A stretch of DNA of 64,000 nt, from the NCBI GenBank assembly GCA_016873495.1, contig VGXC01000014.1, forward strand, positions 1 to 64,000. Reading direction: 5' to 3'. The DNA comes from Nitrospira sp. Lineage in GTDB: Bacteria > Nitrospirota > Nitrospiria > Nitrospirales > Nitrospiraceae. Of the stretch, positions 44,011 through 61,694 are shown piece after piece (the stretch's first letter is position 1; each line of letters starts with the position of its first letter). The notes beneath the pieces are model-generated. The model was not told the origin of the DNA. It saw nothing but the letters and a program-made list of their open reading frames with translations, and ran no database searches. The position numbers and the translations under genes were made by a program.

Positions 44011-44577
44011 CTGCGCTCCTTCGTGACCAACTGCAAGCAATGAGGACCTTCTCCGTTCGGCACAGACGCCGCCGCCCCTGGTTCCGATCATGCCTGTGCC
44101 GAATGGCTCTCTTCGTGAAGGGCAAGAGTGGTGCCGCTGTGGCTCGGATCCGGTCGCTCTAAAACGGGCCTTTACTTTCCAATAGATACACATTGGCCCT
44201 GGCCTGGCTTGATTGAATGAGGAGCCAGGGGCGAAGTCTTCCTTGCGTGACTGTAGCTATCCGCAACATGAGCCGGTCCCGTCACTGTAGCCGAATGACT
44301 CAACGAGGAGTTAATGCGGAGGATGGCTTCCCGCCGAAGATCGCGCCTGCCTCTCTTGATCGCATCGGGATGGAGGTTACCTGATAACCGAGCGGAGGTG
44401 TTGGAGAGAGGAACAGCGCAGGAGCAGGGGGTTAGGCGCAGGGGTGGTGTGCAGGCCCGGTCGGCCGGGAAGCCTGAAGCCCCTCCGGGATCCCCACCAT
44501 GGCAGGAGCTCTCGACGATCCACCCTCCGCTCAGCGTTTCTTATTCCCCAGCCGACTCTTCGGTGTGCAGTTCGACG
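44011..44577. other. Long spacer, no gene supported
   Basis: About 570 bases between UspA and the second caspase-like gene. Open frames here have no family features and shift in composition. Probably carries the promoter of the caspase-like operon; no repeat of the mirrored type seen. Confidence 0.4.
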
Positions 44578-57027: not shown

Positions 57028-57063
57028 AAAAAAACGGCCCGCCCTCATGTGGACCGCCGGGCC
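57028..57063 (-). terminator. Intrinsic terminator on minus strand
   Basis: On the minus strand, GGCCCG (57063-57058) pairs with CGGGCC (57041-57036), followed by G and seven T (57034-57028). It ends the candidate RNA 57028-57302. Confidence 0.7.
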
Positions 57064-57302
57064 TGTCGACTCATCGGGACCTTGTCCGGCAACCCAGCCT
57101 GTCCCTCCCCGGCTGGTTGTCCCGCGCCTCCCTTGGGTCAACGCCCAACTCCGGTCGTGCCTACGGGCACCTGCGAGGCGGCGCGTCCTTCGGATCACGA
57201 TCCCGCTCCGGCACAGGAGCGGCGCCCTTTGCACGCTGGCTGCATGAGGGCGAGTCACCCACCTTTGGCTGCGAACCATCCTCCGCTTCTCCCCCTCCTC
57301 CT
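57028..57302 (-). ncRNA. Candidate structured non-coding RNA (~275 nt)
   Basis: Unassigned region with promoter, several hairpins and terminator, all on the minus strand. A 10-bp long-range helix joins CGCCCTCATG (57252-57243) to CATGAGGGCG (57049-57040). Inside are GGCGC/GCGCC enclosing CGCTCC-GGAGCG (57221-57204) and a small GGAT/ATCC hairpin; GCCTC/GAGGC enclosing GTGCC-GGCAC (57170-57157) and TTGGG-CCCAA (57148-57133); and CGGGAC/GTCCCG enclosing CAACC.AGCC-GGCTGGGTTG. The long-range helix shares bases with the terminator stem. No match to RNase P, tmRNA, SRP or 6S signatures. No plausible protein in any frame. Confidence 0.55.
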
Positions 57303-57308
57303 GCTGTC

Positions 57309-57336
57309 TATGTAAGCATCCCTTGCTTGGGGTCAA
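57309..57336 (-). promoter_or_regulatory. Sigma-70-like promoter for the candidate RNA
   Basis: On the minus strand, TTGACC (57336-57331) and TACATA (57314-57309) are separated by 16 bases. The -35 matches 5/6 of consensus; the -10 is weak. Expected start is near 57302, placing the RNA between this box and the terminator. Confidence 0.45.
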
Positions 57337-57619: not shown

Positions 57620-58075
57620 ATGAATGCCATCACCCGTTGGGATCCGTTCAAGGAACTGGAGGACATGCAGAATCGGTTGAACACGATGTTCGGCCGCGCG
57701 CCGGTGCGTAAGGCCGGCGACAAAGATGAGGCCCTGACGGTGGCCGAGTGGGCGCCGCTCGTGGACATCACCGAGGACGACAAGGAATATCTGATCAAGG
57801 CCGAGTTGCCCGAAGTCAAAAAAGAGGACATCAAGCTGACCGTCGACGAGGATGTGCTGACGATCACGGGGGAGCGGAAATACGAGAAAGAAGAGAAGGG
57901 CAAGAAATACCACCGTGTGGAACGAGCCTACGGCAGTTTCATGCGCAGCTTCACTTTGCCGGAGGATGCGGATGGGTCCAAGGTGTCCGCCGAATGCAAG
58001 GACGGCTTGCTCAAGGTGCACCTGCCGAAGTCGGAAAAGGCCAAGCCGAAGAGCATCGAGGTGAAGGTGAGCTGA
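57620..58075 (+). CDS. Small heat-shock protein Hsp20
   Basis: 151 residues, standard length. N-terminal region MNAITRWDPFKELEDMQNRL, alpha-crystallin domain ~45-135 (WAPLVDITEDDKEYLIKAELPEVKKEDIKLTVDEDVLTITGER) with the closing G-L-L motif (KDGLLKVHLPK) and the C-terminal I-x-V (IEVKV). ATP-independent holdase binding unfolded proteins. GAGGAGGAG precedes ATG. Confidence 0.95.
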   Translation: MNAITRWDPFKELEDMQNRLNTMFGRAPVRKAGDKDEALTVAEWAPLVDITEDDKEYLIKAELPEVKKEDIKLTVDEDVLTITGERKYEKEEKGKKYHRVERAYGSFMRSFTLPEDADGSKVSAECKDGLLKVHLPKSEKAKPKSIEVKVS

Positions 58076-58177: not shown

Positions 58178-58876
58178 TTGTTCGTCTTGCGGGATCGGGA
58201 AGAGGCGGGGCGATTGTTGGCGGAACGGTTGGGCGCCTATCGGGACGACCCGAACGCGATGATCCTGGCCTTGCCCCGTGGCGGGGTGGCGGTGGGATAC
58301 ACCCTGAGCCTGGCGCTGCGGCTGCCGCTCGATGTCCTGATCGTGCGCAAGCTGGGCGCGCCGGGTAACCCGGAATATGCCGTTGGGGCGCTGGCCGAAG
58401 GCCGCGCACTCTATCTCAATCAGGAGGGAATGGGCGCGCTCGGTTTGCGCCGCGAAGATCTCGACAAGCCGATTCGCGTCCAGGAAGAGGAAATTGTCAG
58501 GCGGCAAGCCCTCTACCGCGGCGGCCGGGCTCTGCCGCAGATGGCCGGCCAGACGATTGTGTTGGTGGATGACGGGATTGCCACCGGGTCCACCTTTTTT
58601 GCCTGCATCGAGGCGGTGAAGAAGCTCAAGCCGGATCGACTGGCGGCGGCCATTCCGGTCGGGCCGAGGGAGACCCTGCTTCGGGTGCAACGAGAGGTCG
58701 ACGAGGTGGTCTGTTTGATGACGCCGGAGCCGTTTTTTGCCGTCGGGAACCATTACGAAGAGTTTGCGCAAGTCGAGGATGCGGCCGTCGTCCGCTATCT
58801 GGAGAAGGCGGCTGCAGCGTTGCGCGAAGGGGCGCGCGATGCGCGCGTAACTGGGTCTAACCGAAATCATTCATGA
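58178..58876 (+). CDS. Phosphoribosyltransferase-domain protein
   Basis: 232 residues from TTG (CAGGAGG 7 bases upstream). PRPP-binding motif VLVDDGIATGST, N-terminal LALPRGGVAVGYTL and LPLDVLIVRKLGAPGNPEYAVGAL mark the family of phosphoribosyltransferases often fused to dienelactone hydrolases. The hydrolase-type partner is at 11914-12570. Substrate base unknown. Confidence 0.88.
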   Translation: MFVLRDREEAGRLLAERLGAYRDDPNAMILALPRGGVAVGYTLSLALRLPLDVLIVRKLGAPGNPEYAVGALAEGRALYLNQEGMGALGLRREDLDKPIRVQEEEIVRRQALYRGGRALPQMAGQTIVLVDDGIATGSTFFACIEAVKKLKPDRLAAAIPVGPRETLLRVQREVDEVVCLMTPEPFFAVGNHYEEFAQVEDAAVVRYLEKAAAALREGARDARVTGSNRNHS

Positions 58877-58887
58877 GGAGTTTTGAT

Positions 58888-59400
58888 ATGGCCGTACGAG
58901 CGGGGAAGCCCAACGGCAATCCGGCGGTCCGGGTGGCGCGCAGGGATCGAACGATTCAAGAGGCCCGGCATGACGTGTACCAGGCCCGCGGCAAGTTCCG
59001 GGAACCGACCGCCTGCCCGCGATGCGGGGCGGTCTTCCGCAAAGGACATTGGAGTTGGAGGATCAGGCCGGCCAAAGCCCATGAGGCGATCTGTCCGGCT
59101 TGTGAGCGCATCGGCGATCAGAACCCATCCGGGATTCTGACCCTGCAGGGGCCGTTCCTCGCCGCGCATCGGGACGAGATCCTGGGGCTTATCCACAATG
59201 AAGAGGCGAAGGCCAAGGCGGAACATCCCCTCTCGCGGGTCATGAAGGTCGATCAGAAAAACAGCCGCGTGGAAGTGACCACCACCGACATGCATTTGGC
59301 GCAAGGCATCGGCGAGGCGTTGCGCCATGCCTATCAGGGGACGCTCACCTTACGGTATTCCCGCAATCAACAGCTCATCCGCGTGCGGTGGGAGCGCTGA
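58888..59400 (+). CDS. BCAM0308-like zinc-ribbon protein
   Basis: 170 residues from MAVRAGKPNGN. Zinc ribbon CPRCGAVFRKGHW and CPACERIGDQNPSG, then a domain with AHRDEILGLI, HPLSRVMKV and VTTTDMHLAQGIGEALRHAY resembling the NMD3-like/BCAM0308 family. Ribosome or RNA association is suspected. GAGGAG before ATG. It belongs to a plus-strand stress cluster. Confidence 0.75.
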   Translation: MAVRAGKPNGNPAVRVARRDRTIQEARHDVYQARGKFREPTACPRCGAVFRKGHWSWRIRPAKAHEAICPACERIGDQNPSGILTLQGPFLAAHRDEILGLIHNEEAKAKAEHPLSRVMKVDQKNSRVEVTTTDMHLAQGIGEALRHAYQGTLTLRYSRNQQLIRVRWER

Positions 59401-59969: not shown

Positions 59970-61694
59970 ATGGATCGTCGCGTAATGGCCTTCGATTTCG
60001 ACGGGACGCTCGCGGTGGAGGGGAAGGTCCCGGTCGAGCTGGCGTCGGCGCTGGAGCGGTGCCGTGATTCGGGGTATGCCCTCTTCCTCGTCACAGGTCG
60101 GCGATTCGATTCGGTTCCGTTGGGGCCGTTGGCCGAGCTGTTTGTCGGAATTGTCTGGGAAAACGGCGCGGTGCTGGCGCACCGGGCGAGCGGAGAATTG
60201 TACCTGCCCTTCGGCCAGCTCCATCCGCGTCTGCTGAAGGCGTTGACGGACGCCGGGATTCCCTTCGAGCGCGGGCTGGCCATCGCCGCAACCTGGACCC
60301 CTCACGAGCAGGCCGTCTGGCAGGTGCTCGGCGCCCATGGGGGCGAAGCCTCGGTCGAATACAACAAAGGGGCCCTGATGATCGTGCCGCCCGGCACCTC
60401 CAAGGGAACGGGACTGGAACGGCTGCTGGCGCTGTGCGGCTTCTCGGCCAGAAACTTGGCCGCCTTCGGGGATGCGGAGAACGATCTGTCCATGCTGAAC
60501 CTGGCCGAAGTGGCCGTGGCGGTCGAAGACGCCATTCCGGCCGTACGCGAGATGGCCGATGTGGTGGCGCAAGGACCGGGTCCGACCGGAGTGCGGGCGG
60601 TCTTGGATGAGTTCCCCCTCGCCGGGCGATACCTCGACGTGCCGCTCCGGAGGGAACGACGGATCTTGCTCGGACACGATGACGCGGGCCATGCGGTGAC
60701 CCTTCCCGCCTCGCGCTTGGCCGGGCGGAACTTGGGAGTGTTCGGCGATTCGGGAACCGGCAAGTCCTGGATGGTGGGCCTGCTGGCCGAGGGGCTGCAC
60801 CATGAAGAGTATCAGGTGCTCTTGATCGACCCGGAGGGGGACTTTCGGGGCTTGCGGGTTCTGCCTCGGTTTTTGGCGCTTGAGGGAGATGCGCATTCTC
60901 TGCCGGCTCCGCCGGCCGTGGCGGCTCTGTTGGACTCGGCGGGGCTGTCGGTGGTGCTGGATCTAAGCCGCTATCCGGTGCCCCTGCGCAGCGGGTATCT
61001 GGCGGAACTGATTCGCGTGCTACGCCCCTTGCGTGAGCGCAAGTACCGGCCGCATTGGATTGTATTGGAAGAGGCTCAGCAGTTCCTCCTGCCGGACGGG
61101 AGGGAGGTGACGGAGGGCCTCTTGCCGCTGTTGGAAGGAGGGGGCTGGGCCTTTGTCTCCTACCGGCCCGATCGGTTCGATCAGGCCGTGCTCCGGGAGA
61201 TACACCACTGTCTATTGACGCGCATGACCGAACCGGATTCGGTGCAAGCCGTGCAGACCCATTGCAAAACCTGCGGCGCGGGTGGCGTGAATATGGCGGC
61301 GCTGGCGCCGGGCTCGGCGCTGCTCTGCGGCGGGCCGGTGGTGCGGCTGCGTCCGGCGATCCGACGGGTGCCCCACACGCGCCACCACTACAAGTATCTG
61401 GATGTGCCGCTGCCGCCGGAGAAACGCTTTCGATTCTGCGACGCGCGGACGGATCTCGGCAAGGAGGCGGCCAGCCTCTATGAGCTGCTGCATCTGCTGC
61501 CGTCGCTTCCTATCGCGAGTTTGGAATATCACGATCGACGCCAGGATCTGGTACGCTGGGTGGAGAGTGCGTTGGGCGACCAGGATCTGGCCGCGCGGCT
61601 TCGGAAGCTCTCCAACAGGCAATTGCAGGGGGAGGAACTGCGGGAAGCGCTCAGGCAAACCGTGGCGACCCATTATGCGGACCTGACGGCATGA
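59970..61694 (+). CDS. HAD phosphatase fused to HerA/VirB4-like ATPase
   Basis: 574 residues. Residues 1-~215 form a Cof-type HAD hydrolase: DFDGT (Asp9, Asp11), VTGRR, SKGTGLERLL and GDAENDLSML, so all four motifs are present. Residues ~235-574 form an ATPase with Walker A GDSGTGKSW (~258-266), LLIDPEGDFRG and Walker B WIVLEEAQQFLL (~363-374), resembling HerA/FtsK-type (DUF87/DUF853) motors. A small CKTCG motif follows. No nuclease (NurA-like) partner nearby. The link between dephosphorylation and a translocase-like ATPase is unexplained. Confidence 0.8.
   Translation: MDRRVMAFDFDGTLAVEGKVPVELASALERCRDSGYALFLVTGRRFDSVPLGPLAELFVGIVWENGAVLAHRASGELYLPFGQLHPRLLKALTDAGIPFERGLAIAATWTPHEQAVWQVLGAHGGEASVEYNKGALMIVPPGTSKGTGLERLLALCGFSARNLAAFGDAENDLSMLNLAEVAVAVEDAIPAVREMADVVAQGPGPTGVRAVLDEFPLAGRYLDVPLRRERRILLGHDDAGHAVTLPASRLAGRNLGVFGDSGTGKSWMVGLLAEGLHHEEYQVLLIDPEGDFRGLRVLPRFLALEGDAHSLPAPPAVAALLDSAGLSVVLDLSRYPVPLRSGYLAELIRVLRPLRERKYRPHWIVLEEAQQFLLPDGREVTEGLLPLLEGGGWAFVSYRPDRFDQAVLREIHHCLLTRMTEPDSVQAVQTHCKTCGAGGVNMAALAPGSALLCGGPVVRLRPAIRRVPHTRHHYKYLDVPLPPEKRFRFCDARTDLGKEAASLYELLHLLPSLPIASLEYHDRRQDLVRWVESALGDQDLAARLRKLSNRQLQGEELREALRQTVATHYADLTA

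Follow-up and report, generated by a model that had tools for sequence, protein, structure and literature searches.

6S RNA slows transcription in resting cells. It is a free-standing RNA of about 180-190 nt that folds as one long hairpin with a large central bubble. RNA polymerase (RNAP)-binding RNAs that are unlike 6S RNA also exist, i.e. Ms1 and CoRP of the Actinobacteria, and further ones are expected (PMC11077062). Both act on the transcription machinery, Ms1, with approximately 300 nt, in resting cells, and one abundant type of RNAP-binding RNA is found per species (PMC11077062). The papers searched record almost no RNA biology for Nitrospira, and none of the open ones reports a Nitrospira noncoding RNA of the kind analyzed here.

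In this work we analyzed a 64,000-nt stretch of the genome of Nitrospira sp. (contig VGXC01000014.1; hereafter the window), in which a preliminary description made from the sequence alone had pointed out a protein-free segment of the minus strand as a candidate free-standing structured RNA. Comparison with relatives shows the locus to be a predicted independent structured RNA gene, one copy of a Nitrospiraceae family with the paralogous types A, B and C, and shows that this gene is tied to a 6S paralogue by its position and its promoter. We consider it highly probable that the product acts in trans as an independent RNA and that it represents a new family linked to 6S RNA. The features of the locus are collected in Table 1.

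In a BLASTN search with the 326-base region, 12 of 61 genomes, among them that of the window, each yielded a single copy. The covariance model built from these 12 type A copies (R1) matched 94 of 175 Nitrospiraceae genomes, in 18 of 22 genera and with up to five copies per genome, when the best candidates of each genome were scored; given that roughly half of the Nitrospiraceae genomes were without a match on this scoring, the RNA may not be essential. A second model (R2) was built from type C alone, the most distant type. Two phylum searches of 396 genomes, with R1 and with R2, gave no matches outside Nitrospiraceae, and plasmids and phages yielded no match either. For further work 125 copies in 93 genomes were mapped, and their tree separates type A (72 copies in 62 genomes, with the window copy among them), type B (37 copies), type C (9 copies) and a few long-branched others; types B and C never occur together in one genome among the mapped copies. 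R1, built on type A, finds type C, and R2, built on type C, finds types A and B; these reciprocal matches indicate that the three types are one family. The window genome also carries a type C copy behind hemL (G000:C17:67064-67279, plus strand; locus L055, 4065-4280). Its 5' hairpin, GGNGGUGAUC...AUGACGCCACCGG, is invariant, and a further hairpin lies between the promoter and the RNA. Hairpin P5 provides an exact 19-mer, CTCGGTGCCAGTAGGCACG, in the form present in many relatives; it occurs in 27 stored genome contigs, 26 of them from Nitrospira/Nitrospirae, including Candidatus Nitrospira defluvii FP929003.1, and the exact motif was found in no viral contig. An Acidobacteriaceae contig (L147) with the exact 19-mer gave no R1 match and a weak partial R2 match, and was taken as chance.

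The promoter and the seven terminal T residues that had been read on the minus strand are both present. Stock promoter and terminator scanners detected nothing at the focal region, and the promoter counts as evidence because it is conserved in relatives: types A and B have in common the promoter TTGATT-N15-TTAYNT, and the pattern TTGA..-N15/19-T.A is present in 64 of the 72 type A copies. The promoter of type C differs (TTGACA). In the whole window TTGAYY-N15-TTAYNT has only two exact matches, one belonging to the focal RNA and the other to the 6S paralogue. In types A and B, a G-rich AAGGAGGTG lies 37-38 bases past the start of TTGATT (offsets counted by hand), near the first transcribed base. 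A block located 30-60 bases ahead of the -35 box also appears conserved by eye in these two types (e.g. L064, L079), reading GGCGATTNTCNACAGNGCNTGGC in type A and GGGGCGATACGGGACAG ... CAATGGTGCCAATTACCTCATTGATT in type B, and is possibly an activator site. At the distal end, the closing helix P1 together with the U-run that follows it is likely the terminator that ends transcription, as judged from conservation. The focal region contains no protein gene on either strand, as had been noted. Protein coding was rejected, given that the length of 380 of 400 indels is not divisible by 3, and so was a long minus-strand open reading frame (57594-56956), whose frame is broken by indels in relatives.

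The minimum free energy of the focal region is no better than that of shuffled sequences (z = -0.30; 70 of 200 shuffles at least as good); since thermodynamics alone does not mark the region, the structural evidence is comparative. It comes from 58 non-redundant type A copies, aligned with plain MAFFT, whose pairwise identities are 48-93% (median 68%). The consensus has 53 pairs in ten helices, with 96.7% of the cells paired and both-side (compensatory) changes in 35 of the pairs; cells with both-side changes number 275, vs 73.7 expected from shuffles. None of 500 shuffles matched the real alignment on any of five measures, and in a control in which the structure was slid, pairing dropped to 36-47% of cells. 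Kinship among copies can inflate covariation counts, and the excess over the shuffles together with the slide control leaves little doubt that, despite this caveat, the covariation is real. Type B has the same architecture with both-side changes in 30 of 60 pairs, as does type C with 16 of 82. The alignment contains 303 G-U vs 28 A-C cells. Because the plus strand folds relatively better than the minus strand (z = -2.43), the RNA strand was assigned by these counts together with the promoter and the T-run, and on the same grounds the plus strand was rejected.

In the resulting fold the helices form a branched chain that includes a multiloop. Its P5 hairpin (CGGUGCC-AGU-AGGCACG) is better conserved than any other element in each of the three types, and the internal loop GCAGCCAGCGUGCAAAG is nearly invariant within type A. 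The 10-bp long-range pairing proposed in the preliminary description (57252-57243 with 57049-57040) is present, and comparison lengthens it to the 12 pairs of P1. The local helices GGCGC/GCGCC, GCCTC/GAGGC and CGGGAC/GTCCCG, which had been read from the single copy, are absent from the comparative structure; there, GTCCCG pairs with CGGGATC at 57205-57199, and CGCGCC pairs with GGCGCG to form P4. As for the GC hairpin (GGCCCG/CGGGCC) before the T-run, it exists in this copy but is not conserved: in 58 relatives it shows no covariation, and is paired in 77.5% of cases vs 77.8% in shuffles. For this reason, the idea that the long-range helix and the terminator stem are alternative folds is unsupported.

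Table 1. Features of the predicted RNA gene and its partners in the window (positions are those of the window).
Feature	Position	Strand	Basis or remark
Promoter TTGACC-N16-TACATA	57309..57336	-	Exact match to TTGAYY-N15-TTAYNT; conserved in types A and B
Predicted structured RNA transcript, type A, ~275 nt	57028..57302	-	BLASTN and covariance-model homologues, covariation; predicted start placed by the -10 element and predicted end by the T-run
5' tail AGGAGGAGGGGG, Shine-Dalgarno-like segment (family form AGGAGGUG) with no conserved start codon behind it	57291..57302	-	
Small 5' hairpin UGGU-UCGCA-GCCA	57266..57278	-	RNAalifold of 12 relatives; outer pair changed on both sides in 4
P1 closing helix, 5' strand (pairs with 57049-57038)	57243..57254	-	12 pairs, 8 changed on both sides; 98.6% of cells paired
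P1, 3' strand	57038..57049	-	Covariation
P2, 5' strand (pairs with 57066-57056)	57213..57223	-	Covariation helices 3 and 4
P2, 3' strand	57056..57066	-	Covariation
P3, 5' strand (pairs with 57087-57075)	57192..57205	-	Covariation helices 5 and 6
P3, 3' strand	57075..57087	-	Covariation
P4, 5' strand CGCGCC (pairs with 57128-57123)	57180..57185	-	Covariation helix 7
P4, 3' strand GGCGCG	57123..57128	-	Covariation helix 7
P5 hairpin GUGCC-(loop)-GGCAC, most conserved element of the family	57157..57170	-	Covariation helix 8
P6 hairpin (57121-57115 with 57094-57088)	57088..57121	-	Helix 10; 5 of 7 pairs changed on both sides
Terminal T7 after P1	57028..57034	-	At least 5 T in the last 8 bases in 111 of 118 type A, B and C copies
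6S RNA paralogue; its promoter (44356-44382) is of the type found at the focal RNA	44356..44545	+	Partial RF00013 match, conservation, model R3
hsp20; adjacent to the RNA and divergent from it in 24 examined copies (types A and B)	57620..58075	+	Pfam HSP20; neighbourhood counts

The 6S paralogue of the window (RNA at 44388-44545) matches positions 59-134 of RF00013 with 38.3 bits (E = 1.1e-6 for the stretch; gathering score 46.4), and it is conserved in 14 of 41 genomes searched. A model built from 14 such paralogues (R3) was run over the already fetched loci. Of the 40 type A copies covered, 29 have a 6S paralogue at most 400 bp away, and in 27 of these pairs the two genes are on opposite strands and tail to tail; at this distance no 6S paralogue was placed beside any of the 15 type B or 7 type C entries. 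N. defluvii (L210) has one such pair, and in the window the two genes are still convergent, 12.5 kb apart. Other arrangements were also observed: in L084 (4041-4269), L067 (4034-4261) and L087 (3999-4229) the 6S paralogue lies upstream of the RNA and not tail to tail, and in L073 (3990-4203, 4654-4885) and L074 (3996-4215, 4703-4932) tandem type B and type A copies approximately 450-490 bp apart are followed by a 6S paralogue, which makes three noncoding RNA genes in a row. A second 6S candidate with a different promoter is present in the window genome (G000:C12:4981-5055, minus strand), and both 6S-like genes of this genome score under the Rfam gathering cut-off; the 6S model of Rfam misses the Nitrospira 6S paralogues. 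Pairing between the RNA and the 6S paralogue was discarded, with -122.3 kcal/mol for own pairs vs -119.6 kcal/mol for mismatched ones, energies obtained by a duplex method that is unsuited to such lengths.

Besides hsp20, the copies have as recurrent neighbours, by Pfam names, genes for malic enzyme, universal stress proteins, a phosphoribosyltransferase and a CBS-domain/zinc-ribbon pair; the pdh E2 gene lies downstream of the RNA on the opposite strand in 10 copies, and hemL lies upstream of the type C copies in 7 of 7 examined. No downstream gene is conserved across the copies, and the neighbourhood is a stress island, not an operon led by the RNA. Two further genes of the window were observed: one at 58873-59400 (plus strand), recurrent in the stress island, with a weak match to the ribosome-export zinc-ribbon family NMD3 (21.1 bits vs a cut-off of 24.9), and one at 59970-61694 (plus strand) that fuses a HAD-type hydrolase to a HerA-like ATPase domain.

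The 5' segment was compared with the 3' end of the 16S rRNA, for which the standard GGAUCACCUCCUUU was used rather than a sequence read from this genome; mean energies are -15.7 (type A), -18.2 (type B) and -22.2 kcal/mol (type C) vs -8.8 kcal/mol for random stretches, of which only 2.6% reach -15 kcal/mol. The segment of the window copy, AGGAGGAGG, is weaker than the family form, and in type C the corresponding GGAGGUGAUC sits in an invariant hairpin. A short open reading frame behind the Shine-Dalgarno-like motif was rejected: a start codon is placed at a usable distance in only 4 of the 37 type B and 3 of the 9 type C copies, and in 41 of 72 type A copies, where the listed frames have no peptide in common. 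Types A and B and the 6S paralogue all have AGGAGGUG equally far from the promoter, and in the 6S paralogue GGAGGUG is locked in the closing stem; because of this coincidence of place, the 5' segment may be a promoter-proximal element that serves the promoter rather than the ribosome.

The RNA is most likely a trans-acting one that is made at growth stop and targets a core machine, in parallel with 6S RNA. The gene belongs to a stress and growth-arrest island (Hsp20, universal stress proteins, a CBS-domain protein, malic enzyme, pyruvate dehydrogenase) that also includes the 6S paralogue; the predicted RNA would be transcribed from its own promoter when growth stops, and it would then act in trans alongside 6S RNA. 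Family searches of the 99.97% complete genome detected neither Hfq (PF17209) nor CsrA (PF02599; controls were detected) nor Ro/TROVE (PF05731), and for this reason action on a core machine or on an unknown protein is favoured over the partners that regulatory RNAs usually have. Among concrete targets the 30S ribosomal subunit, reached through the 5' tail, is rated highest, although at a level that we regard as tentative: AGGAGGUG would pair with the 16S rRNA 3' end and, with no start codon behind it, would hold or occupy idle 30S subunits. The fuller proposal of a paired growth-arrest cassette under one promoter type, in which the 6S paralogue would idle RNAP and the focal RNA would idle 30S subunits by means of a strong Shine-Dalgarno tail lacking a start codon, is unlikely as a whole; if true, the focal RNA would be the translational counterpart of 6S RNA.

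Two readings would deprive the locus of an independent role. The failure of the minimum free energy to surpass shuffles and the presence of up to five copies in a genome are what a chance GC-rich fold or the remains of a mobile repeat could produce; the strong covariation, the conserved promoter, the recurrent neighbourhoods, the structure of the tree and the absence of phage or plasmid matches leave this reading next to no probability. A cis-acting leader, riboswitch or attenuator for a downstream gene is very improbable too, even though P1 doubles as a terminator stem and type C lends itself to such a reading: 5 of 7 type C loci have a common same-strand gene cluster downstream, and P1 contains the end of a short frame (M T P P D K G G P L L stop), so that translation could be coupled to termination. 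This frame lies 13-16 nt from the Shine-Dalgarno-like motif and is not kept like coding sequence. Downstream of type A and B copies there is, as a rule, an opposite-strand gene (pdh or the 6S paralogue), or else the neighbour varies, by which a leader is largely refuted for these types, and in the window nothing follows on the same strand, as the preliminary description had pointed out. Its reading of an independent RNA rather than a leader agrees with the homologues and their strong covariation, the conserved promoter, and the closing helix with its T-run.

The other explanations concern what an independent RNA would do. It might be the structural core of an RNA-protein particle, with P5 as the protein site and a partner that is not encoded next door; the conservation of P5 in all three types, even as an exact 19-mer across Nitrospira, and the retention of structure down to 48% pairwise identity speak for it, whereas no protein family adjoins all types (hsp20 accompanies A and B, and hemL accompanies C) and Ro is absent, and we hold this explanation to be possible but doubtful. 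Somewhat unlikely is an RNA that, as 6S RNA or Ms1, binds RNAP and holds core or holoenzyme in resting cells, with the 6S paralogue as its functional sister. The proximity to the 6S paralogue, the promoter type and first transcribed bases that both genes have in common, a size near that of Ms1, and the precedent of Ms1 and CoRP argue for it; against it, the fold is a branched multiloop, RF00013 gives no match, the covariance models of the focal RNA and of the 6S paralogue do not detect each other, and this genome already has two 6S candidates, which fits poorly with one abundant type per species. To a similar degree we doubt a regulatory RNA that would base-pair with stress-response mRNAs through an exposed segment, either the 5' tail or the GCAGCCAGCGUGCAAAG loop. 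Such a function would suit a free-standing gene with promoter and terminator, an almost invariant internal loop within type A, and paralogues that keep a common fold with differing exposed sequences, as in sRNA families; yet the genome has no Hfq or CsrA gene, the pairing predicted with the 6S paralogue is unspecific, and typical base-pairing sRNAs are smaller and less structured.

The preferred reading, of a trans-acting RNA linked to 6S RNA, adds to the nitrifying Nitrospira a structured RNA class that is absent from Rfam 15, and the link with the 6S paralogue and the stress island provides a concrete, testable idea of when the RNA is made. If it acts on the ribosome or on RNAP, it would be another example of a core machine that an RNA holds in resting cells, and this in an organism with no detectable Hfq or CsrA.

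Concerning known RNA classes, the window has no Rfam match at gathering thresholds, and up to E = 10 the focal region gives none except for an irrelevant plus-strand match to a lncRNA fragment; no Rfam 15 family corresponds to types A, B or C. RNase P RNA, tmRNA and the small SRP RNA resemble the focal RNA in size range and stable structure, and their genes are located elsewhere in the genome with scores above the cut-offs (C1, C28, C34); that the focal RNA is none of these, nor 6S RNA, had been proposed and is borne out by the Rfam search, in which RF00013 gave no match to the focal region at the gathering threshold or up to E = 10. The CsrA-sponge RNAs (CsrB/RsmY type) have a GGA-rich 5' segment in common with the focal RNA, while their partner was not detected in this genome, and the same applies to the partner of Y RNA, whose Ro-binding stem the motif GGUCCGAAGG may resemble. 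Ms1 and CoRP are structured RNAs of a similar size class from a different phylum (PMC11077062), and their sequence relation to the focal RNA was compared through Rfam only. With 6S RNA, the focal RNA has in common a free-standing gene, a closing stem, an own promoter and a T-run, besides its position next to the 6S paralogue in relatives; in contrast to 6S RNA, it is longer, with approximately 275 nt, and multibranched, with the hairpins P5 and P6. The covariation, the own promoter and terminator, and the conservation across different contexts place it among the free-standing structured bacterial RNAs, and it is thus a new family of a known sort with an unusual gene pairing.
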